From NCBI GenBank assembly GCA_030068145.1, contig JAPJBO010000556.1, forward strand, positions 62,001 to 126,000: 64,000 nucleotides of DNA, read 5' to 3'. Below, one piece after another: positions 5,591 to 58,471 of the stretch. The position numbers and the translations under genes were made by a program. Every line of letters starts with the position of its first letter. Positions within the stretch are counted from its first letter, which is position 1. The notes below the pieces were generated by a model. That model was not told the origin of the DNA, did no database searches, and saw nothing but the letters and a program-made list of their open reading frames with translations. The stretch comes from Diplonema papillatum. Its lineage: Eukaryota; Euglenozoa; Diplonemea; Diplonemida; Diplonemidae.

Positions 5591-5679
5591 GGCGGCCCTG
5601 AGATTACCCCCCTCAGGTGGCACCACTGTTTTATCTTTTATCCATACTTCAACGATGTAAACGTCAAGTTCTTTGCAAA

Positions 5680-6047: not shown

Positions 6048-6117
6048 GTGCCTTACTTTTTTAGAGTCACAGTCAGTGTACGCGCGAACAGCCGACTTGC
6101 CGGCTGATTAAAATTTT

Positions 6118-6477: not shown

Positions 6478-6736
6478 GTTGAGTGGGATAAACACGCAGT
6501 CTTTTTCCCTCCGAGGTTTTGTTCTCGCAAACGAATCCCCGTGTGCAGCGGGCGGTGCCCACGGCACACGGCACCAAGCATCCATGCGGAGCATCAAGCT
6601 CGTGTAACAGCCAGCGCACACGTATCAGGCTGCCACACAAACCCACATCATCGCACACACACGTATCAGGTTACCACACAACGCACATACACCCTCTCCG
6701 GTAGCTCCGGTCCGCTGACCTCCGCGGCCTTTGAAA
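6478..6736 (+). repeat. 260 bp dispersed repeat, copy 1 of 3
   Basis: Runs from TGAGTGGGATAAACACGC to CTCCGCGGCCTTTGAAAAG. Near-identical copies are at 7640-7901 and 59389-59582. It has GCATCCATGCGGAGCATCAA and CA-rich stretches. The short ORFs in it are not conserved as proteins. Confidence 0.9.
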
Positions 6737-16352: not shown

Positions 16353-16359
16353 AACTCTG

Positions 16360-17590: not shown

Positions 17591-18029
17591 CTCGTCGTTC
17601 TACTCGTGTCACGGAATTGGAGCCGGCGTCTTCTGGCCTCACGCACTGCTGGCTCTATGGGGCTTTTGTTGACCCCTTCCTCCGGTACGGCTCGTGCATC
17701 TCCATCTCAAACAAAAGGTACCACCAAAGCGGATACTTACAAACAAACGAAGGGGAAGAACACCTGACCATGAGGCTATGACTGCCGCCAGGACTCCGTC
17801 ACGTAACCCACCCATTACGTATTAGCTCTAAAAGAACCCATTCGACTTGCCAAAGCAGGTGACTTCCACCAGTGCGCACAAGCAAAAGCCCAGATATATA
17901 TTTCGTCGCCAGCATCAAACATGCATGAGAGGCAGCGTTCTGGCTGCACTAAATTTATAAACCCCCCCTCCCGCGGGGGGGCCCAAGGCCACATTCATTG
18001 CGAATGTGTTGTCGGCCGCAGGAGTCTTT
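17591..18029. other. Spacer with K/D, F and G repeat pieces
   Basis: 17820-17885 carries AGAACCCATTCGACTTGCC and a D-like GTGCGCACAAGCAAA. F lies at 17908-17960 (CATCAAACATGCATGAGAGG). G lies at 17983-18025 (ATTCATTGCGAATGTGTTG). No gene is seen. Confidence 0.6.
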
Positions 18030-19140
18030 TTTATGGTAACAAGCTTGCTTGTCTATATCAAAAAGTGTCGGATGGCAGCGTGCTGTGTTAAATCACTCAA
18101 AACAGGGTTTACACACGTACGCACAAACAAAAAATATGCCGGCTGTGCATACCCTAGAACAAATGGATCTTCCGAACGTAGATTGGGATACCATTCCAGT
18201 CGTACTATATCCGGCGAGCCGCCCGGCTGCTGTGGGACGAAGACAATGCGTTTTTCATGGTAACAAGCTTGCTTGTGTATCAAAAAGTGTCGGATGGCAG
18301 CGTGCTGTGTTAAATCACTCAAAACAGGGTTTACACACGTACGCACAAACAAAAAATATGCCGGCTGTGCCTACCCTAGAACAAATGGATCTTCCGAACG
18401 TAGATTGGGATACCATTCCAGTCGTACTATATCCGGCGAGCCGCCCGGCTGCTGTGGGACGAAGACAATGCGTTTTTCATGGTAACAAGCTTGCTTGTGT
18501 ATCAAAAAGTGTCGGATGGCAGCGTGCTGTGCTAAATCACTCAAAACAGGGTTTACACACGTACGCACAAACAAAAAATATGCCGGCTGTGCCTACCCTA
18601 GAACAAATGGATCTTCCGAACGTAGATTGGGATACCATTCCAGTCGTACTATATCCGGCGAGCCGCCCGGCTGCTGTGGGACGAAGACAATGCGTTTTTC
18701 ATGGTAACAAGCTTGCTTGTGTATCAAAAAGTGTCGGATGGCAGCGTGCTGTGCTAAATCACTCAAAACAGGGTTTACACACGTACGCACAAACAAAAAA
18801 TATGCCGGCTGTGCCTACCCTAGAACAAATGGATCTTCCGAACGTAGATTGGGATACCATCCCAGTCGTACTATATCCGGCGAGCCGCCCGGCTGCTGTG
18901 GGACGAAGACAATGCGTTTTTCATGGTAACAAGCTTGCTTGTGTATCAAAAAGTGTCGGATGGCAGCGTACTGTGCTAAATCACTCAAAACAGGGTTTAC
19001 ACACGTACGCACAAACAAAAAATATGCCGGCTGTGCCTACCCTAGAACAAATGGATCTTCCGAACGTAGATTGGGATACCATCCCAGTCGTACTATATCC
19101 GGCGAGCCGCCCGGCTGCTGTGGGACAAAAACAATGCGTT
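18030..19140 (+). repeat. 222 bp tandem repeat, five copies, with an embedded D module
   Basis: Units repeat every 222 bp (CATGGTAACAAGCTTGCTTG near 18257, 18479, 18701 and 18923). Each has two parts: the D element (GGATGGCAGCGTGCTGTG to GTACGCACAAACAAAAA) and a coding-like part (ATGCCGGCTGTGCCTACCCT to TGCTGTGGGACGAAGACAAT). The period is divisible by three, so one frame is open throughout. Confidence 0.95.
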
Positions 19141-19428
19141 TTTTCCCCATCATGCGACACCGCCCATGATGCCGCCAACGGGCGACACTGTTCGCGTTGT
19201 GGCGGCGTTTGTATCGCCTCATGCCTACGGTCCCGACTCAGGGGCAGGGACAATCGTGACAGATTCGCCTTGCCAGAGGCGCTCAACACCACGTGGGTAT
19301 GTCCCACATGCTGTTGGCTGGTACACAACGGCAGCCCGTTGTTGCCGGTTGAACCGGAAGCCGAGGAGGTACTGCCGCCTGAGTGGGAGGCCAAAGAGAG
19401 TAAAAGAGTGAAAGAGTACGTACAGTAG
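18049..19428 (+). CDS. Open frame over the 222 bp array, ending in a Cys-rich domain (uncharacterised)
   Basis: 459 codons are open. Residues 1-360 are near-identical 74-residue repeats (MPAVPTLEQMDLPNVDWDTI, then VGWQRAVLNHSKQGLH). The D-derived half is unlikely to have evolved as protein. The last part, from about 19024, is more gene-like: after QCVFSPSCDTAHDA it has CSRCGGVCIASC, then WVCPTCCWLV and an acidic tail. That cysteine spacing suggests a zinc-binding module, and WVCPTC resembles the closing half of PHD-like fingers. I interpret it as an exon of a gene or transposon (about 19024-19400) whose 5' part was tandemly duplicated together with an inserted D element. No start or complete structure is certain. 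Confidence 0.4.
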   Translation: MSISKSVGWQRAVLNHSKQGLHTYAQTKNMPAVHTLEQMDLPNVDWDTIPVVLYPASRPAAVGRRQCVFHGNKLACVSKSVGWQRAVLNHSKQGLHTYAQTKNMPAVPTLEQMDLPNVDWDTIPVVLYPASRPAAVGRRQCVFHGNKLACVSKSVGWQRAVLNHSKQGLHTYAQTKNMPAVPTLEQMDLPNVDWDTIPVVLYPASRPAAVGRRQCVFHGNKLACVSKSVGWQRAVLNHSKQGLHTYAQTKNMPAVPTLEQMDLPNVDWDTIPVVLYPASRPAAVGRRQCVFHGNKLACVSKSVGWQRTVLNHSKQGLHTYAQTKNMPAVPTLEQMDLPNVDWDTIPVVLYPASRPAAVGQKQCVFSPSCDTAHDAANGRHCSRCGGVCIASCLRSRLRGRDNRDRFALPEALNTTWVCPTCCWLVHNGSPLLPVEPEAEEVLPPEWEAKESKRVKEYVQ

Positions 19429-22800: not shown

Positions 22801-25800
22801 CACGGTGGTGTAAGCGAAGAACAAATCAGATTGTGTTTGTATTGTATTTGCCCCTTACCTCTATATTTCCCCCCTTCCATTCGGAGTCGAAGCAGCTACG
22901 TCGAGTATTTTTGTGTTACCTAGCCCCCCCCGTGCATAAGATGGATAGCCAAACCCCCTTGATTAAGATGGATAACGGGCGAGAATGCCAATCCACCTTA
23001 AACACGGGGGTGAGGTACCCCTGTGCAAAGTGACTACACGGTAGTCTACAGTGCCCCCGTGTTTAAGATGGATACCCCCCTTGATTAAGATGGATACCGC
23101 CAAAACCCGAGTTTTTTATCCATCTTATGCACGGGGGGGGCTAGGTAACAATGCATTGCTGGTACGAAAAATTAGTAGTTGGCAGCGTACTAAAAGCAAC
23201 TCACCAAATCAGGTGAAAAGCCGCTAGTGGTGCGCACAAACAAACGGAAGCGCCATACTAATTTTTTTGTCGTATAAGATCGCAGATCTTAGAAGATTAA
23301 TATATCCGACGAATACCTAACACTCGTTACAGGTTGAATAACCCCGTCGCTATCCCGAAAACATCGTAACTTCACCCCTCGCTTGCCCACCCACCCTTGC
23401 CCCCCCTTTTTCTGAAGCCGTGTCCTGAGGCGTCACGACGATTGTGACAAACACACCGAATCACTGCTTGACCTTTCTACTTTCGATTTATGCATCACCC
23501 GCGACGGTGAAGACGATTGTGACAAACACACCGAATCACTGCTTGACCTTTCTACTTTCGATTTATGCATCACCCGCGACGGTGAAGACGATTGTGACAA
23601 ACACACCGAATCACTGCTTGACCTTTCTACTTTCGATTTATGCATCACCCGCGACGGTGAAGACGAAGCAGCAGACGGAGCCAGTATACGCAGTAGGAGG
23701 AGGATGTATTATGTTGTATAAGCACCTGCTTTGTAGGAAATACTTGAGGAGGCTGCCAGCTGCAAAAGATCAAAGGAGGTAAATGTGCTGTAGCCCACAC
23801 GAAACACAGGCGAATCTGGGTTCAGTGGCGGGCGTAAGCGTTCAACAAAAAAGACCCATTTTGTAGTTGTATTGTTTCTCCCCCTCTAGCCTCCTTCGAA
23901 GTAAGCACAAGGCAGCCCCTCGAGTATTTTGTAAGCACCTGCTTCGTAGGAAATGCTTGAGGAGACTGCCAGCTGCAAAAGATCAAAGGAGGTAAATGTG
24001 CTGTAGCCCACACGAAACACAGGCGAATCTGGGTTCAGTGGCGGGCGTATGCGTTCAACAAAAAAGACCCATTTTGTAGTTGTATTGTTTCTCCCCCTCT
24101 AGCCTCCTTCGAAGTAAGCACAAGGCAGCCCCTCGAGTATTTTGTAAGCACCTGCTTCGTAGGAAATGCTTGAGGAGACTGCCAGTCGTGATAGATGAAA
24201 GGAGGTAAATGTGCTGTAGGTGTAACGTCCCGACCCGATGCCCGAGCGCCCGGACCCGTGGATCGGCGGCTCCACGTCCGGGTGGGAAGGGGCGCGGTAC
24301 CTGCGCGTGCCGGACCAGTACGTCGGGGGCCGTTTGGATGGACTCGCCGTGCTTCAACCTGCGGCAGGCGACGACTGTGGTGTACTCGGTCGACATCTGC
24401 ACGTTCGAAGTGTTACACCGACGCCCTCCTTTGAGACTCTTTAGACTCTATATTGGGGGGCAACTGGCATGCTGAAGAGTACCACACTATTACCTCCATT
24501 GCGATTTTGCAACCAAATAGCCTCTCTTTTTTTTAGTACTAACAATCTTGCGGGTTGCCCTTCAATGGATTGTGCAGGCTAAAAAGACGTAGACAGCGTG
24601 TTGTGGTGGTTGATCCGAATTATTCACCTGAATATACGCAGGGTAAATACAAGTGGAAAAACGATCACCCGGCACGCACAAACAAAGCAGTTGGAGGTGC
24701 TTATACAAAATACAAAGGTAAGTTTCCGGGCACATCCCACCCAAAACAAATTAGCAGATAGGACTAGACCAGACAGTCCGACAAGCCTCGGCTGGAGCCT
24801 GACCAGTCTAGTCCGGCTGACCCAGAGTCCGACCAGCCTGGACTGCCTGACCAGACCAAGCCCTGGCGGTTGGTGCTGCAAGATCAACAGAAAGGGCGGG
24901 TCTTCTAGATCCTTGGTCTCTTTCAATGGGAAGAACGGGAACAAAATTAGTTACCCAATGAACAGATGCAGAACCTGTCTCAAATTTCTTTTTACCACAA
25001 GTGCATTGTGTGAAGAAACTCAAGCGCCCGAGTAGGATCTTACGACACCAGAACATACACACACCTACACAACGCAGACAACGGCTGTGCCGGCGGGATG
25101 GCTGTGGGCGTCGACCTCGAGAATTTCGAAGTAAGCCCGTCGATGCTCGACGGGAACGCAGAGTGGGTGTACGGTCCCGACCCGATGCCCGAGCGCCCGT
25201 ATCCGTGGATCGGCGGCCCCACGTCCGGGTGGGAAGGGGCGCGGTACCTGCGCGTGCCGGACCAGTACGCCGGGGGTCGCTCGGTTTGGATGGACTCGCT
25301 GTGCTACAACCTGCGGCAGGCGACGACCGTGGTGTACTCGGTCGACATCTACACGTTCGGGGAGTACGCGGAAACCGGGGTGTTTACGCTGGGGATCAGC
25401 AAGGACGAGACGGCCACGTTCACCACCCTGTGGAACAGTTCGGGTAAACAGCCGGAAGTGTGGCACCGCCTAGAATTCGACCTCGCGGAGTACATCGGCT
25501 ACGGTGTAGTCATGCGACTCGACCGGGCGAGCCTCATGCAGGCGGGGGTCGACGTGGCACGCATGGCTATCGACTACTGCACTGACGGCCTCGCTGGGTC
25601 CCACGAGGAAAGCTTCGAGGCCGGCTTCGGCTTGTGGGAGCACTCCTACGTGAGCGCCGTCCACTGGTCGAGGAACTCGGGGCCCACGCCGACAGCAGGG
25701 ACCGGGCCGTTGGCCGCGTACGACGGGGCCGGGTACATCTACGTCGAATCGTCCGGAAACGGCACCGGATTCCCGCGGAAGTCGGCGTATTTGATTTCGC

Positions 25801-28800
25801 CTTGCTACTACCTGCAAGGCAAAGCCGGCGCCCAGGCGGCGTTCTCCTTCGCGTACCACATGCACTCGGCGGCGGCGGCGGACGTCGGGAGCTTCTCGGT
25901 CGAAATCAGCGAAAACAGCGGGCTTGTGTGGCGTCCGCTGTGGGTCCGGAGCGAGAGCCAAGCCGATGCCTGGCAGGTGGTCAGCATCGACATGACGGCG
26001 TACCTCAGGGTCGGGCTGCAGCTGCGGTTCAACCGCGTGACGGGGAGCGAAGGGCTGGCGGACGTGGCCGTCGACAGAGTCAAGATGCTCGTGCAGTCGT
26101 GCGACGAGCCGGAGCCCATTCCGTACACCGAAAGCTTCGAATCCGGCATCGGCCGGTGGACGCAAGACCAGTCCGACGACATCGACTGGACCCGATTATC
26201 CGGTCCGACCCCATCCACCAACACAGGTAATCCTCGCATCTCTTTCAAACGTTCCGGAAATGTTGCCACCAATATATCTGTTGCATTAGTGTGATTGTCA
26301 GGCCTTCGACTGACAATCACACTATGCCAATCAATCACCAATATGCCGTTAGTACAATAACTATCGTGAAGTCATGCTTTTCAAGCGCAAGTATAAAACA
26401 GAACGACGCATTTCTTTTCGAGTCGTGTAAGATCGAAGGTTCGAGATACGTCGCTGTACTTGGACCCGGGTACTAGCTCTTGGTGGCTTCCCGTCCGAAA
26501 CCCAGTTCTTGCTAAAAGAACTGGCTGAGAACTACTTAAAAGAAAGATAAACGTACGAAATAGCTACGAATACCGGAGCGAGAGCCAAGCCGATGCCTGG
26601 CAGGTGGTCAGCATCGACATGACAGCGTACCTCAGGGTCGGGCTGCAGCTGCGGTTCAACCGCGTGACGGGGAGCGAAGGGCTGGCGGACGTGGCCGTCG
26701 ACAGAGTCAAGATGCTCGTGCAGTCGTGCGACGAGCCGGAGCCCATTCCGTACACCGAAAGCTTCGAATCCGGCATCGGCCGGTGGACGCAAGACAAGTC
26801 CGACGACATCGACTGGACCCGACTGTCCGGTCCGACCCCAACCACCGACACAGGTAATCCTCGCATCTCTTTCAAACGTTCCGGAAAATGTTCCCGTTGC
26901 CACCAATATGCCGTTAGTACAATAACTATCGCGAAGTCATGCTTTTCAAGCGCGAGTATAAAACAGAACGACGCATTTCTTTTTGAGTCGTGTAAGATCG
27001 AAGGTTCGAGACACGTCGCTAGAAGAATGATACTCTCACGATGAGAGCTTGCACTTGTTCTTGGACCCGGGTACTAGCTCTTGGTAGTGGCTTCCGGTCC
27101 GAAACCCAGTTTTTGCTAAAGGAACTGGCTGAGAACTACTTAAAAGAAAAAGAAACGTAAGAATACCGGAGCGAGATGCATGCCGACGAGTGGCAGGTGG
27201 TCTCCGTCGACATGACGGCGTACCTCAGGGTCGGGCTGCAGCTGCGGTTCAACCGCGTGACGGGGAGCGAAGGGCTGGCGGACGTGGCCGTCGACAGAGT
27301 CAAGATGCTCGTGCAGTCGTGCGACGAGCCGGAGCCCATTCCGTACACCGAAAGCTTCGAATCCGGCATCGGCCGGTGGACGCAAGACCAGTCCGACGAC
27401 GTCGACTGGACCCTATTGTCCGGTCCGACCCCATCCACCGACATAGGTAAGCCTCGCATCTCTTTCAAACGTTGTTCCGGCGCTCACGCCGGACCCTTGC
27501 CCCGGCGGGCTGGCGGGGCCCTTCTCCGAAAGCTTCGAGGCCGGCTTCGGCGGCTGGACTCAGTACCCTGCAAGTGTGGTAGATGACACGCAATGTGTTG
27601 TCGACAAACGACAAGCAACAACCAACAACAGCGACGCCCAAAGTACGAAGAACAACACTGTAACCATACCAAGCCACCCCGCGTCACTAGATCTCACCTA
27701 ACTTCACTGCACTTCACTTCACTTCACGTCGTTCTAACAGCACAATGAAACCTTCCTCCCGTCTCACAAGTCAAACGGAGACTTAAAAATCGACCGCTTA
27801 ACACTCGAAACAGTCTAATAGCCCTCGGAAAGTCAAACGGAGACTTCACAAAATCGACCGCTTATAGCCAGAAACAGTCTAAAAGCACCCGCTAAAAAAC
27901 AAAAAAAAGAGTCTCAAGCGAATTTTCAATACGAAACACCACAGGCCCTTCATACGCGAGTGATGGATTGTCGTACATGTACGTCGAAGCCTCGGGTGCT
28001 AACTACCCCTACAAATCGGCGCTGCTGACGTCACCCTGCTTCAACCTCCCGGATGTCGGAATCGTGGTGCTGACGTTCGACTACCACATGTACGGAATCA
28101 CCACGGCTGTCGAATTGGATTACGGGCCGCTGGCCCTGGAACTGAGTGGGGACGGCGGCGTGTCGTGGTCGGAGGTGTGGGCGAAGGAAGCGAACCAAGG
28201 GAACGGGTGGACGCACGCCCTCGTGAGCCTCGAGGGGCGCTCCGGCGACGTCCGCTTTCGGTTCTCCCGCGTGACCGGCAGCTACTGGTCGACGGACGCC
28301 GCCGTCGACGCGTTTCGGCTCACGCCGGACCCTTGCCCCGGCGGGCTGGCGGGGCCCTTCTCCGAAAGCTTCGAGGCCGGCTTCGGCGGCTGGACGCAGA
28401 GCCCCGCGAACGACGTCGACTGGACCCGATACTCAGGCGGCACGCCTTCCACTTCAACCGGGCCGTCGGCCGCCGCAGCCGGCTTCACGTACGTATACGT
28501 AGAAGCGTCAGGCACGGGAAGCCCGTCGAAACGGGCCATTTTGAACTCGCCGTGCGTTAACCTGCACCAGGCGATATCCGCGACGTTTTCGTTCTCGTAC
28601 CACATGTACGGGCAAGCAGCGGAGTTCGGTCAGTTTGCCCTCGAAGTGACGGCGAACGGCGGCGCGTCGTGGGGCGTTTTGTGGAGCGAAGCGGCGATGA
28701 AAGGCAACGTCTGGCTCGTCGCTGAAGTCGACTTGGCGGCGTATCTAGGGCTGGACGTGCAGCTCCGGTTCAACCGGGTCACGGGGAACGGTTGGCAGAC

Positions 28801-29911
28801 CGACGTCGCTGTCGACGACGTGAAAATGGCCGTGTTTTACTACACGGCGGCGGAGTCGATCGTCGCGTCACACAGCGAAAGCTTCGAAGACGAGCACACG
28901 GTGACCAACCTGCCGAAGGAACCGTTCTCCGTCTGGACGCAGACGACCGCCGACGACCTGGAATGGACCAAACGCTCCGGCCCGACCCCCACGGTAGGGA
29001 CCGGCCCCGCTGCTGCGTACAACCACGCGTACTACGCGTACGTCGAAGCATCCGGCGCGGGCGTCGGGTACCCGCGCAAGCGGGCGGTTCTCACGGGGCC
29101 GCGGTACTCCCTCCGCGAAGCGAAATCGGCTGTTTTTTCGTTCGCGTTCCACCTGCATGCGGCGACCGAAGGAGCCGGCGTCGGGTCGCTGACGCTCGAA
29201 GTGAGTGGCAGCGGGGGCGTCGAGTGGGAGGCGGTGTGGAGCGCCGACCAGAACCAGGGGAACGGGTGGGTGCCCGTGTCGGTGGGCCTCGCGGATTTCG
29301 TCGGGTGGGACCTGCGGCTGCGGTTCGTGCGGCTGACCGGAGAACACGAGGTGGCGGACGCGGCGATCGACGCTCTCCAGCTGACGGTATCTTTCTGCCC
29401 CGGCGGCTTTGCCGGCAGCCGGGAGGAGAGCTTCGAGGCGGGGTTCGGGCTGTGGGGCCAGAACGACGACGGCGGCGACCACATCGACTGGCTGCGGAAG
29501 GACCGCCAGACGCATTCGGCGCTCACTGGGCCCACGAACGCGTTCGACGGGGAGTACTTTGTGTACGTCGAGTCTTCGATGGTCAACACGCCGGCCAAAA
29601 GGGCGATCCTCAACTCACCCTGCTACGACCTTCGGGCAGCGAAGACGGCGGAGTTCTCGTTCGCGTACGAGATGCACGGGAGGGGCATCTTCGGAACATA
29701 CGGCCTCGAGATCAGCACGAATGACGGGGCGTCGTGGGCCAGCCTGTGGAGCATCAGCACCTCGCAGGGCGACATGTGGCACACGAAGGTCATCGACCTG
29801 GCATCGTACCTGGGCTCCGTCATCCGCCTGCGGTTCAACAGGGTCACAGGCGCAGCCGGAGACTACGAAACCGACGCCTGCCTCGACATGGTCAAGCTCA
29901 CCGTCACGTAA
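19896..29911 (+). CDS. Secreted astacin metalloprotease with six MAM domains (four exons)
   Basis: Exons 19896-20343, 21984-22637, 25078-26226 and 27945-29911 give 1,405 residues. All junctions are phase 1 with GT-AG ends. Residues 1-18 (MLIRAFLVAGALAALGSA) look like a signal peptide. The peptidase M12A domain starts near MWPEGKLRYAI. HEILHTLGIMHEQSR (about 154-168) gives the zinc-binding HExxHxxGxxH and the family's HEQSRxDRD. SIMHY (207-211) is the Met-turn. Six MAM domains follow from about 370, 535, 710, 881, 1055 and 1235, with repeated SFEAGFGxW, VESSG/VEASG, LNSPCxNL and LRFNRVTG blocks; the first is most diverged. No membrane anchor is seen, so a secreted enzyme is likely. Meprins also pair astacin with a MAM domain, but have only one. 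MAM domains usually mediate adhesion or oligomerisation. Introns 1 to 3 contain partial extra copies of neighbouring exons. The start is the only ATG that gives a signal peptide. Confidence 0.88.
20344..20849. repeat. Astacin intron 1, first part: B1 and A repeats
   Basis: After the donor GTACGCCCCCCC a family B1 copy begins almost at once (TTGTATAAGCACCCGC at 20364; core to about 20505). A family A copy follows at 20566-20790 (ATGGCTAGCCATGTCCGGGA). A segment AGTGCCATCAAGGCAGACGA is shared with 44530-44570. Confidence 0.85.
20850..21372 (+). pseudogene. Duplicate of astacin exon 2, copy 1 (no acceptor)
   Basis: From CCCACGAGATTCTGCACACC it repeats the first 260 bp of exon 2, including the zinc-site and Met-turn codons. 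It lacks the CACACAG acceptor. After CTGGGCTGTCAAAA it leaves the exon for A-rich intronic sequence, then family F. In-frame reading ends at a stop near 21265. Confidence 0.9.
21373..21936 (+). pseudogene. Duplicate of astacin exon 2, copy 2 (acceptor intact)
   Basis: This copy begins CCTTCCACACAG|GCGGCC, the same acceptor and phase as the real exon 2, at 21409. It encodes the zinc site and Met-turn, then runs into the same A-rich sequence as copy 1 and stops at 21830. Spacing between the three copies is about 565 and 575 bp. If spliced in, it would give a short protease without MAM domains; otherwise it is a relic. Confidence 0.85.
22664..22913 (+). repeat. Family B2 MITE-like repeat
   Basis: TACATAAGCGCCAGCTTGAA opens it about 25 bp after the splice donor, and CAGCTACGTCGAGTATTTT closes it. 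The near-terminal sequences AAAT-GCTCGACG and AAAATACTCGACG are inverted. Other copies: 32472-32754, 49237-49528 (minus) and 48034-48145 (partial). Confidence 0.85.
22919..23145. mobile_element. Mariner-like MITE (family J) with TA target duplication
   Basis: The ends CCTAGCCCCCCCCGTGCATA and its inverse TATGCACGGGGGGGCTAGG are near-perfect terminal inverted repeats. Inside are several inverted and direct copies of TTAAGATGGATA. Flanks read TGTGTTA before and TAACAATGC after. Uninserted D copies read TGTGTTAACAATGC, so the insertion duplicated TA. No transposase is encoded. A second copy is at 43962-44180. Confidence 0.9.
23146..23268 (+). repeat. Family D repeat split by the J element
   Basis: CAATGCATTGCTGGTACG, GTAGTTGGCAGCGTACTAAA, CACCAAATCAGGTG and GCGCACAAACAAACGGAAGC are present, closing with CCATACTAATTTTTTTG, which mirrors AAAATTAGTAG near the start. 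Confidence 0.85.
23437..23663 (+). repeat. 75 bp tandem repeat, three copies
   Basis: GACGATTGTGACAAACACAC starts at 23437, 23512 and 23587. The units look identical. The open frames through it follow from the period being a multiple of three. Confidence 0.95.
23714..24222 (+). repeat. Family B1, head-to-tail tandem of about 2.4 copies
   Basis: GTAAGCACCTGCTTCGTAGG-type starts are spaced about 213 bp apart (23717, 23931, 24144). Each full unit has the inverted ends AAATACTTGAGGAGGCTGCC and GGCAGCCCCTCGAGTATTTT. Tandem arrangement is unusual for a MITE. Confidence 0.9.
24222..24440 (+). pseudogene. Fragment of the first MAM exon inside intron 2
   Basis: GTCCCGACCCGATGCCCGAG onwards matches 25171-25370 of exon 3. 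A deletion near 24330 (GGGCCGTTTGGATGG against GGTCGCTCGGTTTGGATGG) shifts the frame, so it cannot be used. It has no acceptor of its own. Confidence 0.9.
24530..24700 (+). repeat. D-related module
   Basis: AGTACTAACAATCTTGCGGG to CAATGGATTGTGCAGGCT, then GGCACGCACAAACAAAGC. ACAATC and GATTGT can pair over a longer loop. Related: 46013-46070, and in reverse 33350-33400 and 9655-9720. Confidence 0.7.
26271..26339. mobile_element. About 61 bp fold-back insertion with 8 bp target duplication
   Basis: Compared with the sister copy at 26893, which reads GCCACCAATATGCCG, this copy has an insert between two copies of ACCAATAT (26271-26278 and 26340-26347). The insert contains ATTAGTGTGATTGTCAG and CTGACAATCACACTA as a hairpin. 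The same arms recur at 63316-63350. Confidence 0.85.
27476..27560 (+). pseudogene. MAM domain fragment in intron 3
   Basis: CGGACCCTTGCCCCGGCGGG onwards matches 28322-28400 of exon 4 (CPGGLAGPFSESFEAGFGGW) but breaks off after the Trp-Thr-Gln codons. It is an isolated exon scrap. Confidence 0.9.
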
Positions 29912-49528: not shown

Positions 49529-49635
49529 AGCAAAACCCCGGGCGTCGATTGCCCCTCCGCCTTTTCTTCCCCCCCCCCACCCAGCTTCCAACGACCCCCA
49601 CCCAGTGCGAATGTGCTCGTGGTGTCGGTCACAGG

Positions 49636-49862
49636 AGTCCTTTTTTTGTATAGGCACCCGCTTTGTAGGAAATGCTTGAGGAGACTGCCAGTTGCGATAG
49701 ATCAAAGGAGGTAAATGTGCTGTAGCCCACACAAAACACAGGTGAATCTGGGTTTAGTGGCGGGCGTAAGCGTTCAACAAAAAAGACCCACTTTGTAGTT
49801 GTATTGTTTTCTCCCCCTCTAGCCTCCTTCGAAATGAGCACAGGGCAGTCCCTCGAGTATTT
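49636..49862 (+). repeat. Family B1 repeat
   Basis: TTTTTGTATAGGCACCCGCT to GCAGTCCCTCGAGTATTT, preceded by G-type TGGTGTCGGTCACAGGAGTC. Confidence 0.9.
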
Positions 49863-49867
49863 CTGGC

Positions 49868-50034
49868 TAGCCAAAGTGAGAAAAAGAGTGAAAGAGTACG
49901 TACAGTAGTGGGAAGGGAAGAGAACGAGTGTAAAAGAAGTTGGCTGTAGCACAAACTACCGGGCCAGCGGAGACCACCGCAAACATATTTCTAATGTTTC
50001 CTTATCCCTCAAAACCAGCACCAATAACCCCACA
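49868..50034 (+). repeat. Family C repeat abutting the Penelope-like element
   Basis: CTAGCCAAAGTGAGAAAAAG to AAACCAGCACCAATAACCCC. The frame of the downstream retroelement protein is open back to 49909 through this repeat, which has no ATG in that frame. Confidence 0.85.
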
Positions 50035-53000
50035 CCCACCCTAGCATCTCCATCAGCCAACCGGCGTACACCGAAGCAGCATGTTAGTTTTACATACGTC
50101 TTCCCACGCGAACTTTATCGCACACCACCCGTACAAAGACGCGAACCGGCAACCACAAAGTTTCTACAAGACGCACGGCCGCCGGCTGACAACAGACCGC
50201 AGCAACAAACTCCAACCCTATCAGACAAACGCCACACACCGAAAGGGCATAGATCGCCAGACGTTAACCCAGTCGTGCCGCACCAAACTGCTTCTGCAGC
50301 AAGACGCGATCCTACACACTCACAGCGTCGCCAGTCCCGACTACCGCCGACGTCGAGCACCAAACCGCAGCCACACATACCAACGCTACCATCCCCATAT
50401 GACATCCGCTGCACACCGAAAAAGCCTACTAAAGCTGAAGGCGTCGTCCCACTCGAATTGAATCACGCTTACGCCACAGCAAGACACCAGGCGTCATACA
50501 CGCCGTATTGTCAAATTCCACTGCCGCCGACGCCACACACCGGACTGCAGCCACCCACTACATCTTTACCATCGCCATCAGATGACCGCTGCATACCTAA
50601 AGGGCCTCCCAGTCCTTACGTCTTCCCACGCGAACTTTATCGTACACCGCCCGCAGCAGTACACGAGCCTACTTACGCACCATATCACCAGGTACCACCG
50701 CCAACGATGCTGAGCACGCAGACACCTAAACAAACCAGAACCCCCACACAATACCGTAACACCACACCCTCACCCATCATACACGAAATAGACAACACCA
50801 CACCGACCTCCAGCACCATCTCAGAAGCACAATCCAACGATTTTCACGACCACTCACAAACAAAACCTCTTGCCCCCAACTCCACGAGCAGTACGACACT
50901 CGCTACCGACACGCCGATCACACCTACATTCGCACGCCGCATGTCAAACCATACTACTCACGACGCATCCCCTTTACCCACTTACCAGGAAGCGATGACA
51001 CACAGGACGCATCAGACTACACCTCCAAACTCGACGCCGTCCCACCAAACACACCCGCTAGCAAAACCCACACCGCCATCCGCCGAACTTAGCTCACACC
51101 AAAGCGACGCACTCAAACACATACCGACTAACAACACCATGCCCGGGCGCGACACATACAAAGAAAGTATACAAAGGACAACCGAACACCCAACACCTTC
51201 GCCACCGCCTGTCCTCACACCCTTCGTACGCGATAGCCACCGCCATAAACTGCCGCACACCCGAACTCGGGAGACCTACACCCATGTCACCACAGACACT
51301 AACCTACAACAACCCAACCACACTCCATCACAACGACAAGCGACCTACAGCAACTGGCACTACCGACCTACGACTAATGCAACGGAACACACACAAAGTA
51401 CACCAGAAGACATCCCCGCTAATTCCACCAACTCACCCAGCAAAAAGGATTTCCAGAAGCACACAATCGTCCAGAACGCGATAAATTCACAGGACGCACG
51501 AAGGCCGGAGTTTCACAAGAACCCTTTCCTGACATGCTTTCGAACGAAAGCCAAATTCAACTACGGAAAACAGTTTTGGAGTGAGTACGAAGCACGACGA
51601 AAAGAAGCCGAGAAGACGTTTCTCGCCAAGTATCATCGCAAACTGGCAAAAGGATGGAAACACTGCGACGCAGACAAAGCAAGTTATGCCGACAAAGGAG
51701 TCGTGTATGCACTGGTAGACGAACGCGGTAACCCTCGCTACGTCGGCCAGACCAAACACACCGCGCGCGAGCGTTTAGATTCACATTGGTACGCTAGACG
51801 TAACGGCACACCCGTAGCGTCCGCGATGTTGAAAAGAAACTACCCGCTCTTCACCGTCCCCCTAATTAAGATCAAAATTGCCGACGACGCCTCGACGGAA
51901 GACTTCAGACGTCAAGCCCTCCCGCGAGAAAACTTCTGGATTTCGCACCTCAACACCGTCTACAATGCGCAACGATACATGAGAAGCAACACAGGACAGC
52001 ACCGCAGTCGCAACAAGAAGTCAAACCAAGAACGTTTCCGACCTCCGAGTGCACCGTCCAGCACCGTTTGGGCATGGATAACGGACGGCCAACTACTCAT
52101 CAACCAGACCACCGAAGGCCGCGCTTACTCCATACGCAAACAACTCCACCATCTCCTCTCGCTCAACGACAAAGACCTCTTTAAATACGATTTCAGCTCG
52201 ATGGGACGGCCGAGGGCACGACGTCTGCTCAACTGGATAGCATCGAACGCACCAACTAGTAACCTACCGAAGAACGTCATCACGTTGGAAACCCATTTGA
52301 AGGATAGGCTCAGCGAAGTCACGTTGTCGAAAGTCGAGAAGAATGACGGCGCACCAGCACGACTGATCATCACACACGGAAGCGACCACATACACCGACT
52401 CCACCTCAACGACCTACTCCAACAACCACAAATACGCGAAGCATGCCCTAACCGACGCACTCTAGATCGTACCAAGACAACGTTCCGACTAAACCCACCC
52501 CTGTTCCTACGGGTCCAGAACGTCACAGAAGTCAGTAAAAGCCTGCCAGACCTCGCACTCGGTCCACCCGATCAATGCGCGTGCCGACACTACCGCGGCG
52601 ACAAGAACATTCAAGGACACGCGATCGGGCACCTTTTCGATATAACACAAGACAAAGGCCTCACTGAGTGTATCAAACGCGGACGAAAATACCGCTGCTA
52701 CCAGGACCATCACGCACTCGAAGAGGGACTACACACTTCCATAGACGAATACGTAGAAAAATACTACCCGTCGGAACCAAACGCTACCGCTTTTGGAACC
52801 GCGTTGAAGGACGAACTTTCGGGACGCCTAGCCACTTTACCACCATCTGACGAAGAAACTTTGAGCCGTATCGCATCGCAAGAACTCAAGAGACTCAAAC
52901 AAGACTTGGTGATACTGCCCGTAGACAAAACCACACACGACTTCGGGTTTTGTTGCAAGGCGTACTACACAAACACACTACGGGAGCAAATACAAACCAG

Positions 53001-56000
53001 CGCCACATACAAGAAGGAAAATATAACGAAGACGCAGCTTCAACAACAACACAAGCAGCAGCTCGAGCCTTTCAAATTACAAGCACAAGGCGGACTACCA
53101 TACCTCTACGGCAGTCTCAAATTGCATAAAGCCGAACCGAGTTTCCGGTGGATCGCGGGCGTAGCGACAGACATCGTAAGGAAAGACAACAAGGCAGCTG
53201 CGCGCAAGCAGAAACCGAAAGCAACTACTACGAACGCCCACCTAGAGCTGTCCGGTCTGCTGAAGGCGATTATGCGGACGATAAAGGAAAAGGACCGACG
53301 GAACCAACGACAGACGGGAATAAAGAAGGTCTTCTTCACCGAGAGCCCCGACGACATAGCCCTCAACGTCAAACAGCGTCAAACCCATCTGAGATACAAA
53401 ACACCCACCGACCACGACTTCACGACAATGTACACCAACCTACCGCACGCAGATCTCAAGCGCAGGGTTGGTTCAGCTGTCGACGAAGCTTATGAATACG
53501 AGGAGAAGCACGGCAACAACCACCTCACCCGAGGAGCTAAGCAACAGGGCAAAAAGACTTTTAGTTTCGGCAAAGGGGCGAACAACACCAGCCGAAACTA
53601 TACAAAAGAAGAGCTCAAAGCCCTCCTCAACTTTGTCATCGACAATGCCTACATCGAGCAAGACGAAACCATACTACGCCAAACGGAAGGTATTCCGATG
53701 GGAGGCAATGCAAGTTCGGACCTGGCCAACTTGTATTGCTACAGTGTGGAGTCCGAGTACATAGACGGACTGCTCGCAGAAGGCAAAGTCGACGAAGCCA
53801 AAGCCCACGTCGACACATGGCGTTTCATTGATGACTTCCTCCAATGGGACTGCAAACCACCACCTCAATCACTCTATCGTATGGAGTACAAGGAGACGAC
53901 AGCAGCACGCGACGACATCGTCTTCCTTGGAATACGTATACGTATTGAACGACCCGCAGCTCCACACCCGCCACACATAAGACTAAGCGTACACCCAAAA
54001 ACCTTCGGCACACGTTTCACACACTACCAGACCACCGCCCCCAAATCACAGGCCAGCGGCATTTTCAAAGGGTCTCTCATCAGGGCAATTCGACAGACCA
54101 ACCACTGGCAGGACCTTCGCGTCGAGATCCAGCGCAACGTATACGCGATGCTCGAACGGGGGCACCACCCCAGAGTTCTCTACCCCCCTTGGCAAGCTTG
54201 GCTGACGGAGGAGTTCCGTACCCTACCACGACTACACAGCCAGTTAAAACCGTTCCTAGGGTACAGCATTGCGCGTTTCAAGAACGGCAAACCGCGTATG
54301 AAAGAGCCAGATTTCGCCGGAAGACACCAACCCCTTAACTTCAAACCAGCCGAACTGCCAGTAACACCGGAGGATCTCGACTCAACGACAGACAGCCACT
54401 CCACAACAATCCTTGAACACGAGGAAAGACCAACAAACCTCCTTTCACAACCACAACCTCAGTTCACCTTGAAGCACCGAGTAGCCAACCTAGCTGCAAC
54501 CATCACCTTAGCAGCAGCAATCGCAGCCGCCGGAGCGAGGACCATGTCTAAACTCACGAGATACACCACCACAAACTCCTGTTTTCTGCAAGCGGCCCTT
54601 AATTTGATCGCCGCCACAGACATGGCACAACAAGTAGTCACATACCACGACTGCCCAACACACACGAAAGGCGAATGCACGGCAGCCGTACACGCTTGGG
54701 TGACAGGAAAGCGGACGCAAGCAACTCTGCTGCACGTTTTCGCCAACATCGACGGACCGTTCGGCAACGGGCAGCAATGCGACCTCGGGGAAGTTTTAAG
54801 AGCCATCACCACAGCACTTCTTGACGAAAACCTCGCACACCAAACTTGCCAACAACATCGCCCTGACGCTTTCAACGGTCTACGACATACGACGACGACG
54901 ACAACTACTTGTAAAAACTGCAACCACAACAAAACCAACCCACCCGAAGACCACGACATAACCTTCCTACCTCCAATCGACAACTCGATCCAACGGTGCC
55001 TGAACAATCACATCAAACCTGGCCCCGCCGCCGACTACAGATGCGAAGTCTGCAAAATCACCGATACCACCCTCGCAACAACAACATTTCACCGCATTAA
55101 TTCAATGCTGTTGATCCAGCTTCAAAGAGCCCGTAGACGCCAAGCGACGAACCGTACCGCTATACGCGCCGACCACTCTATCACGCTTCCAGGACAAAAC
55201 ACACCACTCATACTCAAAGCCGTAGCAGTACACTCCGGCCACAACAACGCCGGGCACTACGTCATTCACGCCCTCAACGATATCGACGCTAACCAACGTT
55301 GGACTCGCTTCGACGGACTACAGACGCACTCCACTTCGACGCAAAACTACACCGACAACGAAGTATACCTCTGCGTCTACCAGCTCAAAGACAACCCACA
55401 GACAGGTGTCCCTCCACCCATTGACCCATCATACCACAACCACTATGAACCCCCAAAGCCTGCCACGCCCAGAACCACAACACAAGAGCCGGACTCGACT
55501 CAAAGCATACTTAGAGCTATGCGCGGAGACGAGACATCTACCGACACACCCACACAACGACACGACAGCACACCCCCCACACGAACACCCACAACACCAG
55601 GCACGTCACAGACCTCCAGTACCACCGCGGAAACAGAGACCAGCAGTGAAGACGACTTACGATGTCCCCACTGCCACACACGCACAACAACAACCGGCCT
55701 CAAACTGAAGGGAAAACAAGGATTACGGACGCACCTACGTTACTGCAAGAAGAAACCACCCAGAACTAAGTCACAAACAGAAACAACGCTGCGAAGCACC
55801 ACCCAGAAACGAGATAGATGTCCCTACTGCCACAGCGACGGACGAACCGTGGGGAAACCACGCTTCAAAAGTCTACGCCACCATAAACCCTGGTGTAAAA
55901 AGAAGCACTGTAAACGACGCACAGCAACGACGACTACATCAGACGAATAACCTCACTAACCACGGGTACCCAGTGTGCCCAGAGTGCCTTAACTGTGGCG

Positions 56001-56094
56001 AGCAACGAACAGTTTTACCCAGCAAATCTACCCAAAAAAAACCTTATATTAGGGCGGAAGCAACCCGCACTACGTGAAGCACCGCAAATGTCGC
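50035..56094 (+). mobile_element. Penelope-like retroelement with permuted domains
   Basis: The element lies between a family C copy and a family A copy; its exact ends are unproven. It carries one long ORF, described separately. N-terminal placement of the GIY-YIG nuclease matches the Chlamys/Naiad group of Penelope-like elements; classical Penelopes have it at the C-terminus. I found no flanking direct or inverted pseudo-LTR, no hammerhead ribozyme core and no other copy in the window. The plus strand is rich in A and C, unlike the GC-rich host exons. After the stop, AACTGT and ACAGTT can form a hairpin near 55998. Confidence 0.85.
50275..55950 (+). CDS. Penelope-like polyprotein: GIY-YIG, reverse transcriptase, USP-type deubiquitinase, zinc fingers
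   Basis: 1,891 residues with no internal stop. Residues 1-440 are Pro/Thr/His-rich, with a repeated block (YVFPRELYRTPP). GIY-YIG: VVYALVDERGNPRYVGQT (476-493), RERLDSHW, and RENFWISHLNTVYNAQ (about 550-565). A CACRHYRGD...GHAIGHLFD motif precedes the RT. RT blocks are LPYLYGSLKLHK, DFTTMYTNLPHADL (from 1048), EGIPMGGNASSDLANLY, RFIDDFLQW (1183-1191) and FLGIRIRI, with all three catalytic aspartates. A USP (C19)-like domain spans about 1425-1705: NSCFLQAALNLI with Cys1436, CxxC pairs near 1546 and 1589 as in the USP zinc ribbon, and HSGHNNAGHYVIH with His1661 then RWTRFDG (Asp1680). The tail has two C2HC-like fingers (RCPHCHT...THLRYC; RCPYCHS...HKPWC). The RT and nuclease copy the element. 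The deubiquitinase role is unknown but its active site looks intact. The first ATG is used because upstream open frame lacks one. Confidence 0.85.
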   Translation: MPHQTASAARRDPTHSQRRQSRLPPTSSTKPQPHIPTLPSPYDIRCTPKKPTKAEGVVPLELNHAYATARHQASYTPYCQIPLPPTPHTGLQPPTTSLPSPSDDRCIPKGPPSPYVFPRELYRTPPAAVHEPTYAPYHQVPPPTMLSTQTPKQTRTPTQYRNTTPSPIIHEIDNTTPTSSTISEAQSNDFHDHSQTKPLAPNSTSSTTLATDTPITPTFARRMSNHTTHDASPLPTYQEAMTHRTHQTTPPNSTPSHQTHPLAKPTPPSAELSSHQSDALKHIPTNNTMPGRDTYKESIQRTTEHPTPSPPPVLTPFVRDSHRHKLPHTRTRETYTHVTTDTNLQQPNHTPSQRQATYSNWHYRPTTNATEHTQSTPEDIPANSTNSPSKKDFQKHTIVQNAINSQDARRPEFHKNPFLTCFRTKAKFNYGKQFWSEYEARRKEAEKTFLAKYHRKLAKGWKHCDADKASYADKGVVYALVDERGNPRYVGQTKHTARERLDSHWYARRNGTPVASAMLKRNYPLFTVPLIKIKIADDASTEDFRRQALPRENFWISHLNTVYNAQRYMRSNTGQHRSRNKKSNQERFRPPSAPSSTVWAWITDGQLLINQTTEGRAYSIRKQLHHLLSLNDKDLFKYDFSSMGRPRARRLLNWIASNAPTSNLPKNVITLETHLKDRLSEVTLSKVEKNDGAPARLIITHGSDHIHRLHLNDLLQQPQIREACPNRRTLDRTKTTFRLNPPLFLRVQNVTEVSKSLPDLALGPPDQCACRHYRGDKNIQGHAIGHLFDITQDKGLTECIKRGRKYRCYQDHHALEEGLHTSIDEYVEKYYPSEPNATAFGTALKDELSGRLATLPPSDEETLSRIASQELKRLKQDLVILPVDKTTHDFGFCCKAYYTNTLREQIQTSATYKKENITKTQLQQQHKQQLEPFKLQAQGGLPYLYGSLKLHKAEPSFRWIAGVATDIVRKDNKAAARKQKPKATTTNAHLELSGLLKAIMRTIKEKDRRNQRQTGIKKVFFTESPDDIALNVKQRQTHLRYKTPTDHDFTTMYTNLPHADLKRRVGSAVDEAYEYEEKHGNNHLTRGAKQQGKKTFSFGKGANNTSRNYTKEELKALLNFVIDNAYIEQDETILRQTEGIPMGGNASSDLANLYCYSVESEYIDGLLAEGKVDEAKAHVDTWRFIDDFLQWDCKPPPQSLYRMEYKETTAARDDIVFLGIRIRIERPAAPHPPHIRLSVHPKTFGTRFTHYQTTAPKSQASGIFKGSLIRAIRQTNHWQDLRVEIQRNVYAMLERGHHPRVLYPPWQAWLTEEFRTLPRLHSQLKPFLGYSIARFKNGKPRMKEPDFAGRHQPLNFKPAELPVTPEDLDSTTDSHSTTILEHEERPTNLLSQPQPQFTLKHRVANLAATITLAAAIAAAGARTMSKLTRYTTTNSCFLQAALNLIAATDMAQQVVTYHDCPTHTKGECTAAVHAWVTGKRTQATLLHVFANIDGPFGNGQQCDLGEVLRAITTALLDENLAHQTCQQHRPDAFNGLRHTTTTTTTCKNCNHNKTNPPEDHDITFLPPIDNSIQRCLNNHIKPGPAADYRCEVCKITDTTLATTTFHRINSMLLIQLQRARRRQATNRTAIRADHSITLPGQNTPLILKAVAVHSGHNNAGHYVIHALNDIDANQRWTRFDGLQTHSTSTQNYTDNEVYLCVYQLKDNPQTGVPPPIDPSYHNHYEPPKPATPRTTTQEPDSTQSILRAMRGDETSTDTPTQRHDSTPPTRTPTTPGTSQTSSTTAETETSSEDDLRCPHCHTRTTTTGLKLKGKQGLRTHLRYCKKKPPRTKSQTETTLRSTTQKRDRCPYCHSDGRTVGKPRFKSLRHHKPWCKKKHCKRRTATTTTSDE

Positions 56095-56399
56095 GAAACC
56101 CAAGCACTACTCTACGAGAAAATACATAAAAACGCGGACAACAGACCGGTACGGGCTACAAGGCAACCCCTGCTCAACTTGTAGAACGTGGGGGGCCCAA
56201 GATTACACTCCACGAAGGAATGTACTTGGTGTCGGTCACAAACATTCCCGGACATGGCTAGCCATAACCCATAACGAAAGCATGCACTAAATATACAATC
56301 CGAAACCACAAAGCCCTTTCTTGCTCTAAGAGAACCCATTCATGAACGGTCACACGGAGACCCTAAAACCCCGGTATTTCAAGCGAACTTTAACTCTAA
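56095..56399 (-). repeat. Family A repeat, long copy
   Basis: GCGAAACCCAAGCACTACTC to TTTCAAGCGAACTTTAACTC. Near-identical in layout to 39975-40305. Confidence 0.9.
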
Positions 56400-56627
56400 T
56401 AACAACGACGCCACCCTTCCCCAGTGAACATCCCATGAAAGTAACAATGATGACTTAGACCGATACGGGCTACATGGCAACCCCTGCTCAACATGTGTAG
56501 TGCATGCTAATCCATGTGGTTCATGAACTCAAAAGAACACAATGCTCTACATGTATGCACGTGGGGCGGCGCAGGGCCACATTCATTGCGAATGTGTTCG
56601 TGGTGTCGGTCGCAGGAGTCTTTTTTG
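56400..56627 (+). repeat. Spacer with 61 bp unit and family G repeat
   Basis: 56500-56550 resembles the 61 bp unit. 56576-56625 is family G (ATTCATTGCGAATGTGTTCG, TGTCGGTCGCAGGAGTC), shared with 17983-18025. Confidence 0.7.
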
Positions 56628-56802
56628 GCTAGCCAGAGAAAGTAACAAAGAGTGAAAGAGTACGTATGGTAGTGAGTAGAGAAGAGAACGAGTGTAAAAG
56701 AATGGAGGTAGCACGGACTACCTGACCAGCGGAGACCACCGCAAAAAGATTTCTTACCTTTTCCTTATCCCTCAAAACCAGCACCAATAACAACGACCCC
56801 AC
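56628..56802 (+). repeat. Family C repeat
   Basis: GGCTAGCCAGAGAAAGTAAC to CCAGCACCAATAACAACGAC. Copies of this family flank both sides of the Penelope-like element, in direct orientation. Confidence 0.9.
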
Positions 56803-57658
56803 CCGGCCCCCGGCACCGTTCGTTCCCTCCTCCCATTAAAAAATCCAGTGTCCCGAAGGTACCCACAACTGCCCTGTGGCACACTGTGGCGAACTACACG
56901 AGAAGATTGTTGATTTTCTTTCTTCTTTTTTGCGTTGACCATCGTCGTAGAAACACCTTGGTCCAAGCTGGATTGCAGGGCTTGCGCAGCTCTTTTGTCT
57001 TGGAGCTTAATACCTACTGAAAATCAGTACGTAGGATCGGGCAAAAAAGAAACAGAGCATAGGGCGGCTACCCCCCGCAGGCCTTCGACTAAGCGCACCA
57101 GCAGCAAGGCGGGTACCCGCCGGTATGACCAAGCCAGCCAGCGGGAACACTCTAGTGGCACACCCGCATTGACACACTAGTAACACGACACTGCGGTGAC
57201 ACACCCACTGACACACTAGTAACACAACACTCCAGCGACACACGCGCATTGAAACACTAGTAAACCTCTAAACCGCAATATTCGCTACAACCCTGCGGAG
57301 AGTACCCGGCGGTTGTGTCACCTGTACTGACGCACTAGTAGCACAACACTACGGTGACACACCTGTGCTGACACACTAGTACCCACTGCGGCGACAACCC
57401 TGTACTCACACTGCAGTGACACACCTGTCCTGGCAGACTAGTAACATGGCCACGGCACACCTCACGAAACCGTAAAAAAATTTGCTTTATAGCACAAGAA
57501 GCTCTAAGCTCCTTTTTCGCAGCCTGCAGGGAAGCAAAAAAAAATCTTGCCTAAAGGAATCAACTGCCTTCGGGTAGGCTAGTCTGACACTAGTTGTCGT
57601 CGGGAAAAAAAAAAAAAAAAAAGGAAAAAGAAAAAGGAAGAAAAACAGCAACCACCGA
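56803..57658. repeat. 5' flank of the next gene: exon scrap and CACTAGTAACAC repeats
   Basis: 57078-57132 copies 57904-57950 of the gene below (GCGCACCAGCAGCAAGGCGG) but with CGACTAA in place of CGACCAA. 57150-57450 holds about seven degenerate units of 35-40 bp with GACACACTAGTAACAC. 57604-57650 is the A- and purine-rich leader of the gene. Confidence 0.8.
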
Positions 57659-58423
57659 ATGTCCGGGTACCCACCGCCACCGCAGGGCTTCGGCGGAGGC
57701 CAGGCCGGCTACCCGCCCCCGGGCGGGGGCTACCCCCCTCAGGGAGGGGGATTCCCGCCCCAGGGAGGAGGCTACCCACCCCAGGGAGGAGGGTTCTCGC
57801 CTGCAGGCGGGGGCTACCCCCCTCAGGGAGGAGGGTTTCCGCCTCAGGGAGGCGGCTACCCCCCGCAGGGAGGAGGATTCCCGCCCCAGGGAGGCGGCTA
57901 CCCCCCGCAGGGCTTCGACCAAGCGCACCAGCAGCAAGGCGGGTACCCGCCCCAAGGCTACGGCCAGGATCACCAGGGCGGAGGGTACCCGGCGGCACCC
58001 CAAGGGTACGGCGGAAGCGCGCCGCCCGCATACGGCGGCGGAGGGCACGACCAAGGCTTCCAGAGCAGCGGCTACCCGGGGGCTGCAGCGCCGCCTTCTT
58101 CGTCCTTCGGCGGCGGCGACCGCTACGTGCTCGAAGCGCCGGACGGGACGCAAGTCGAGCTGTCGGAGCAGGAAGCCCTGGCTGCCGGCGGCGCCGGGGC
58201 CGAGTACCAGAAGGAAATCCCGACGGAGCAGGCCCGCGGGATGCCCGAAGGATCGCAGGACAGGGGCATCGGCAAGCTGCTCCTCGGCGCCGCAGCGGCG
58301 GGCCTCACCCTGTACCTGATGCGCGGCGTCATCAAGAAGGTCTCCGGCAAGGTGACCGGCAAGGGCGGCAAGAAGGACAAGAAGGGCAAGAAGGACAAGA
58401 AGGGTAAGAAGAAGAAGAAGAAG

Positions 58424-58468
<45 letters not shown>

Positions 58469-58471
58469 TGA
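57659..58471 (+). CDS. Gly/Pro/Tyr-rich repeat protein with a C-terminal membrane segment
   Basis: 270 residues. Positions 1-130 are GYPPQGGG/FPPQGGG repeats followed by GYGQDHQGGGYPAAPQGYGG. A globular-looking middle (YVLEAPDGTQVELSEQEALA) leads to a hydrophobic stretch about 205-222 (LLLGAAAAGLTLYLMRGVI). Then come a Lys-rich segment (KKDKKGKKDKKG) and a poly-Ser end from AGC repeats. Proline/tyrosine-rich repeats with a membrane anchor are seen in lipid-binding and rhodopsin-tail-like proteins, but I do not recognise an orthologue. The ATG follows a purine-rich leader as in the astacin gene. The 3' simple repeats make the exact end prone to polymorphism. Confidence 0.75.

Follow-up and report, generated by a model that had tools for sequence, protein, structure and literature searches.

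A Penelope-like retrotransposon of Diplonema papillatum with a ubiquitin-specific protease domain in its polyprotein

A stretch of 64,000 nucleotides from the genome of the marine unicellular flagellate Diplonema papillatum (assembly GCA_030068145.1, contig JAPJBO010000556.1, positions 62,001 to 126,000 of the forward strand; hereafter the window) was analyzed, where a Penelope-like retroelement was found at positions 50028-56402. The element is, with near certainty, a permuted Penelope-like retrotransposon of D. papillatum whose polyprotein ends in a deubiquitinase of the ubiquitin-specific protease (USP) type, followed by zinc-finger patterns. This architecture recurs in five Penelope families, with a full catalytic set and a USP under purifying selection; an R2-like element also carries a related USP. 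An earlier note on this DNA had described an uninterrupted frame that joins an N-terminal GIY-YIG nuclease and a reverse transcriptase (RT) to a USP domain. Its coordinates and stop-free length stood, while the GTG at 50275 is not a natural start in this 5'-truncated copy. The element, its frame, and its domains are as follows.

50028..56402, plus strand: Penelope-like retroelement of family W, 5'-truncated copy (~6.37 kb); the part common to loci L039-L043, where the flanks differ
50275..55950, plus strand: open frame, 1891 amino acids; the GTG is the first mechanical start only
51694..51954, plus strand: GIY-YIG endonuclease domain, N-terminal to the RT (GVVY 475, RYVG 488, R498, E552); right border inferred
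52918..54333, plus strand: Penelope/TERT-type RT with a DKG-like motif (882) and thumb, residues 882-1353 (Asp1048, Asp1186, Asp1187)
54568..55380, plus strand: USP (peptidase C19) domain, residues 1432-1702, Pfam UCH
54580..54582, plus strand: catalytic Cys1436, an invariant column of the USP alignment A1
54910..55053, plus strand: zinc ribbon of the USP fingers (Cys1546, 1549, 1590, 1593), invariant columns of A1
55255..55257, plus strand: catalytic His1661, an invariant column of A1
55312..55314, plus strand: third triad residue Asp1680, Asn in family E and not invariant in A1
55663..55746, plus strand: C-terminal zinc-finger pattern 1 (CPHC...HLRYC), a sequence pattern conserved in family E
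55819..55896, plus strand: C-terminal zinc-finger pattern 2 (CPYC...HHKPWC), a sequence pattern conserved in family E

The Pfam UCH profile matched residues 1432-1702 of the frame with an E-value of 9.8e-12 and 45.4 bits (cut-off 23.9), covering profile positions 6-254 of 254. The Cys box, the CxxC/CxxC ribbon, and the His box that the earlier note had read were all located (NSCFLQ at 1434-1439, CKNC at 1546-1549, CEVC at 1590-1593, NAGHYV with His1661, and RWTRFDG with Asp1680), and the QxD motif (Q1501/D1503/E1506) was present together with the Cys box and the His box with its Asp/Asn. Alignment A1 consisted of 16 USP rows, 14 mobile and two host, and the columns N20, C22, Q87, D89, E92, the four Cys, and H247 were invariant in all 16. 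The proposed membership in peptidase C19 was borne out not only by Pfam but also by a profile comparison with solved USPs, where USP15 was the best match (E = 4e-55), and by the predicted structure, which showed the USP hand fold when compared with solved USPs. The fold matches to USP46, USP12, USP35, USP1, and USP2 tied within 1 Z unit, and the structural alignment with cellular USPs had an identity of 15-19%. Families A and B retain the textbook GLPNLGNTCF box, and a divergent lead to the Cys box is also found in copies from long interspersed nuclear elements (LINEs). With the domain intact-looking and its catalytic set complete, deubiquitinase activity is predicted. Neither of the two C-terminal zinc-finger patterns was matched by Pfam in the window frame.

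The N-terminal GIY-YIG domain, weak in the window copy, was found above the Pfam cut-off of 22.6 bits in the relatives P0005 (23.8 bits), P0006 (23.5 bits), and P0012 (23.0 bits). We take GVVY, RYVG, R498, and E552 to be its motif residues, and likewise assume the usual names and roles for the RT motifs, including the presumed catalytic residues Asp1048, Asp1186, and Asp1187 and the DKG-like motif at 882. The RT motifs were kept across families. In a Foldseek search with a predicted model of the GIY-YIG/RT part, the first 17 rows were telomerase (best E = 1.6e-11), with group II intron RTs and viral polymerases in the rows below; the model was modest (predicted local distance difference test, pLDDT, of 62 and predicted TM-score, pTM, of 0.56) and the TM-scores were low, at ~0.2-0.3 of the query, such that the telomerase-like fold lends support to, but does not prove, a Penelope/TERT-type RT. 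The window RT had no match among the sequences of solved chains. The RT type that the earlier note had proposed is upheld by motifs, relatives, and fold, not by Pfam. As GIY-YIG (474-513) precedes the RT (882-1353), the order is permuted, and the layout fits the Chlamys/Naiad order as had been suggested.

Recurrence of the fusion was analyzed in the D. papillatum assembly of 271 Mb, the same genome as the window. The window USP had at least 129 matches, of which 119 were free of internal stops, and these fell mainly into identity classes near 100, 97, 69, 61-65, 54, and 49% (128 of 707 candidates scored). The window RT had at least 131 matches (131 of 553 candidates scored). Among the 49 RT matches with an identity of at least 77%, 41 agreed with a USP match in both contig and length of the open frame, while the remaining eight were short, broken, at a contig end, or without a USP among the matches listed. 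The USP subfamilies at 69% and 54% were found with Penelope RTs at 85% and 76% identity, respectively.

Five Penelope families were sampled, namely W, E, A, B, and D, where E and D were each represented by one locus. In family E, the RT has ~60% identity and frames reach 2210 amino acids. The locus read (L058) is collinear with W through the USP (E = 9.7e-15) and the two zinc-finger patterns, and it aligned to W residues 1261-1876 at 42% identity, with no break near residue 1420, from where the earlier note had counted the USP part. A reading of family E as lacking the USP was rejected, since L058 carries it at the expected place; the apparent lack arose because only 128 of the 707 USP candidates were scored. 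Families A and B encode GIY-YIG, RT, USP, and one zinc-finger pattern, and together account for ~112 of 149 scored PF00443 matches, as tallied from the score column, with 16 read. In family D, the RT has ~45% identity and frames are near 1513 amino acids; the GenBank model P0020 matched UCH with E = 4.6e-18, and one genomic locus was stop-free with the USP in the reading phase of the RT (UCH E = 9.3e-16), 380 bases between the two being unread. Twenty loci were fetched, 16 of which were mobile: RT and USP shared one frame in 11, and in the other five, the frame that encodes the USP lacks a complete RT. Additionally, the ENA protein P0017 (1662 amino acids, from a contig of 6564 bases) combined an RT of 45% identity over about half of the query with a UCH match (E = 3.4e-15); P0019, also from ENA and on a contig of 2518 bases, was too short for the presence of a USP to be judged. 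One scan of viral contigs returned no relative.

Selection was estimated as the ratio of nonsynonymous to synonymous substitution (dN/dS) by Nei-Gojobori counts in two runs, the second with tighter borders and on parts of the same elements. With the wider borders, an estimate was obtained for 14 of 18 USP pairs, and a ratio below 1, which the earlier note had proposed to look for in other copies, was found in all 14, with 12 of them within 0.087-0.297; the four saturated pairs were W with W54, LINE, and A, and W54 with LINE. For example, W had ratios of 0.087, 0.156, and 0.127 against the 97%, 69%, and 63% subfamilies, and A against B had 0.157. With the tighter borders, five USP pairs gave 0.156, 0.087, 0.176, 0.261, and 0.122, and the RT gave 0.036, 0.089, 0.118, and 0.060 in four of six pairs, two being saturated. 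The ratio for GIY-YIG, A against B, was 0.063, and that for the linker between RT and USP was 0.42, 0.78, and 0.51 in three pairs with wide intervals. Several deeper pairs had a proportion of synonymous differences (pS) above 0.7, which makes their ratios rough. The order of RT below USP below linker is the pattern of a functional but faster-evolving domain, and purifying selection acts on the USP as judged from these substitution counts.

A search of the protein collection with the window USP (E up to 0.001, length-limited) returned only three proteins, P0002, P0003, and P0004 of D. papillatum, with USP identities of 49, 53, and 58%, respectively. These belong to another retroelement: P0002 and P0004 are named SLACS in GenBank and P0003 is hypothetical, and the best solved match of the P0002 RT was the R2 protein (E = 5.8e-8). 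Among 45 LINE RT matches with an identity of at least 64%, 12 shared contig and frame length with a W-type USP match. In the USP tree, two LINE rows joined W with E outside (support 99/94), and the group of W, E, and LINE had a support of 100/100. This branching favors a transfer of the USP from Penelope to LINE as the likeliest direction, but a grouping of W and E without LINE was not rejected by the approximately unbiased test (p-AU = 0.093). A single origin of all mobile USPs was neither rejected (p-AU = 0.375) nor shown by the USP trees, and the groupings expected from the RT tree, W with LINE and D (p-AU = 0.149) and A/B with X (p-AU = 0.11), were not rejected. D and X are long branches, and the tree program warned that long branches meet in the USP tree. 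A group of R2-like RTs at 66% identity, with frames of up to 4088 amino acids, had no W-like USP among the matches listed (C6:8175-8912, C364:6947-7684, C1171:56034-56771, and others), and since only 128 of 707 USP candidates were scored, it is not concluded that this group lacks one.

The borders of the window copy are described by the following features.

55951..56402, plus strand: 3' untranslated end; copies end TTTAACTCTAA plus a short A-run
50023..50028, plus strand: AATAAC at the 5' junction, with a second occurrence at 56398-56403, the 3' junction
49596..50027, plus strand: host repeat, left part, outside the element; a dispersed repeat of ~226 bp is nested at 49640-49865
56577..56804, plus strand: host repeat, second copy, outside the element; not a pseudo-long terminal repeat (pseudo-LTR)

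The stretch 50028-56402 was 98.9-99.8% identical to five other loci (L039-L043) with unlike flanks, where the comparison with L042 covered 3.5 kb only (contig end) and L043 started 17 bases later. The reading frame is already open from 49909, in the flank, and its earliest in-frame ATG is at 50707. Upstream of the truncation point, other copies stay open in frame across tandem Pro-rich repeats of ~190 bp; on contigs C187 and C149 the likeness reaches ~2.2 and 2.6 kb above that point, and the family W frame on C187 has 2762 amino acids. Because other copies extend upstream in frame, the window copy is 5'-truncated and GTG 50275 is not a natural start. An undisrupted copy of the surrounding repeat reads CACCAATAACAACGACC, with AATAAC once, such that the AATAAC pair may be either a target-site duplication of 5-6 bp or microhomology. 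A pseudo-LTR reading of the direct repeats at 49596-50041 and 56577-56804 was rejected: the repeats belong to the host, since the five other element copies differ there and four loci of 2.4-3.4 kb (L030-L033) hold the repeat without the element. Self-comparison of 14 loci of 7-10 kb revealed no head-to-tail element copies, where a copy beyond a locus end would escape; L010 showed repetition of its USP part, and L013, L019, and L020 contained tandem repeats of no assigned class. When the window stretch and seven loci were scanned with Rfam at E-values up to 1, no hammerhead ribozyme was found, although a divergent one could escape; the 23 microRNA-type rows returned were all under their gathering scores.

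Some related loci and gene models had unusual structures. In L010 (contig C97), a minus-strand frame at 2342-6718 contains two USPs flanking one RT (residues 148-484 and 1052-1392), ~67% alike in DNA; L047 contains 5.9 kb of the L010 segment at 99.9%, which places the segment twice on that contig. Pieces of Penelope RT were also found in P0006, P0008, and P0009, which GenBank names kinesin-like protein 3, UNC93-like protein 3, and STIP1-like; these either are chimeric models or reflect insertions into host genes.

Elsewhere in the window, the dispersed repeat of ~226 bp (49640-49865) has counterparts on dozens of contigs, mostly at 96-98% identity, and a similar unit of 213 bp is tandem at 23719-24219. 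A satellite of ~84 copies of 42-bp units spans 9877-13368, strongly C-rich on this strand (GC skew of -0.64 at 10001-12000), and further tandem arrays are at 15067-16373 (34 bp x 38) and 18027-19143 (222 bp x 5). Open frames included one with a MAM domain (25098-26294, E = 9.6e-22), another with MAM in four stretches (E = 3e-60) and a Reelin-subrepeat match (27968-29911), and a third at 57659-58471, where GGYPPQGG-type repeats (21-bp units, 57665-57937) precede Lys-rich repeats.

In the explanation favored here, the element would be copied by target-primed reverse transcription, a process discussed for Penelope elements in passages of PMC11167929, where GIY-YIG would nick and the RT would extend. 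The USP, tethered to the ribonucleoprotein through the shared chain, would strip ubiquitin from the RT and its complex, which would thereby escape proteasomal removal long enough to reach DNA and integrate. That such protection in cis is the main role of the USP is given somewhat less than an even chance, and the explanation as a whole, with the identity of the element included, is considered slightly likelier to be right than wrong. The presence of USP and RT in one polyprotein in all five families sampled suits a role in cis, and the W-type USP in R2-like elements indicates a benefit that extends beyond a single integration machinery. The data suggest that these elements interfere with the ubiquitin tagging of proteins in the host. 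More tentatively, a deubiquitinase may be a standard component of diplonemid retrotransposons, as an exchangeable module that would be kept active by selection, be moved between Penelope-like and R2-like elements, and counter ubiquitin-based host control of retrotransposition.

Several observations weigh against this explanation. In the window copy, the Pfam match to GIY-YIG (residues 474-513, E = 0.0045) reached only 17.7 bits against the cut-off of 22.6, and that to RVT_1 (E = 0.1) only 12.7 bits against 29.6. Selection constrains the USP some two- to fourfold less strongly than the RT, and two near-copy pairs, one within A and one within A2, had dN/dS of 0.49 and 0.76, as expected since near copies decay after insertion. 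The AlphaFold model of the USP (pLDDT of 79.9) had only 16 sequences behind it. With respect to catalytic efficiency, the W USP has TTTNSC in place of the classical GLxNLGNTC lead, and in family E the third triad residue is Asn. Additionally, no USP was detected in the ENA protein P0018 (1091 amino acids), which has a related RT, and a chromatin or repair target would leave identical sequence evidence.

That last point belongs to the main rival, in which the USP works in trans where the element integrates: anchored to the DNA by the nuclease and the zinc fingers, it would deubiquitinate histones or repair and replication factors of the H2B, PCNA, or FANCD2 type, such that the nicked DNA is opened or repaired in favor of the element. 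Fold neighbors such as USP1, with FANCD2, and Ubp8 permit a histone or repair target without showing it, and no substrate preference emerged from the tied fold matches or from the sequence, where USP15 was best by profile; this alternative is judged unlikely, though less so than any of the others. The divergent Cys-box lead of the W and LINE copies and the Asn for Asp in family E could instead indicate a catalytically weak module that binds ubiquitin and recruits host factors, but all 16 rows share the Cys, the His, Q-x-D-x-x-E, and the two CxxC pairs without variation, and A and B keep GLPNLGNTCF, which makes this improbable. The odds are longer still for a USP that processes the polyprotein of the element itself. 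Family W frames of up to 2762 amino acids with a protease inside would suit such a role, but USPs cut after ubiquitin or ubiquitin-like C-termini, and Pfam finds no ubiquitin-like domain in the window frame. Finally, several GenBank models here join element pieces to host genes (e.g., the kinesin-like protein), as would occur if a host USP fragment had been fused to one copy by chance or by an artefact of assembly or gene modeling. Such an origin is hardly credible given the uninterrupted frames at 41 of 49 W-type RT matches, the five families, a USP dN/dS below 0.3 in 12 of 14 pairs, and the collinearity of W and E through RT, USP, and zinc-finger patterns; chance capture of a single host USP fragment is refuted by the recurrence.

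If active, the element would represent a natural deubiquitinase fused to an RT and would allow testing of whether ubiquitin limits retrotransposition in a eukaryote. Furthermore, the D. papillatum proteins P0012, P0013, and P0020, listed in GenBank as ubiquitin carboxyl-terminal hydrolase 16 and 26, are retroelement polyproteins, and such entries may inflate counts of host deubiquitinases.

Among known systems, the closest in layout are the permuted Penelope-like elements of the Chlamys/Naiad type, which Craig et al. are said to have described in 2021 with an N-terminal GIY-YIG. Both place GIY-YIG ahead of a Penelope/TERT-type RT within a single frame, whereas the window element adds a C-terminal USP and then zinc-finger patterns, and had no pseudo-LTR at the window copy and no Rfam hammerhead match. 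Compared with cellular USPs (USP15, USP46/USP12/USP1, and Ubp8 of SAGA), the window USP shares fold, catalytic residues, and zinc-ribbon fingers, but at 15-19% identity in structural alignment and from inside a retroelement polyprotein.

In the D. papillatum genome paper (PMC10161547), ~2500 gene models are attributed to retroelements, with retrovirus-related polyproteins, LINE-1, SLACS, R2, and jockey named, and neither 'penelope' nor 'ubiquitin' appears anywhere in the main text of that paper. No retrotransposon-encoded USP was recognized in the portions of the open-licence full-text literature searched, which also covered OTU in non-LTR elements. There, the nearest published case appears to be a DNA-transposase/C19 fusion, a Trichomonas transposase_11 protein with peptidase C19 mentioned in passages of Bao et al. 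2010 (PMC2836005), where the DNA transposons Ginger1, Mutator, and Helitron are also described with OTU or Ulp1 domains. These likewise join a mobile-element protein to a ubiquitin- or SUMO-system protease, which is C-terminal in Ginger1, but they are DNA transposons with other protease families, bar the one C19 case, while the present elements are retrotransposons of several families with selection data. Nearest in the USP itself are the R2-like non-LTR elements of D. papillatum (P0002-P0004), which share a USP stretch 49, 53, and 58% identical to that of the window but have an R2-type rather than a Penelope RT.

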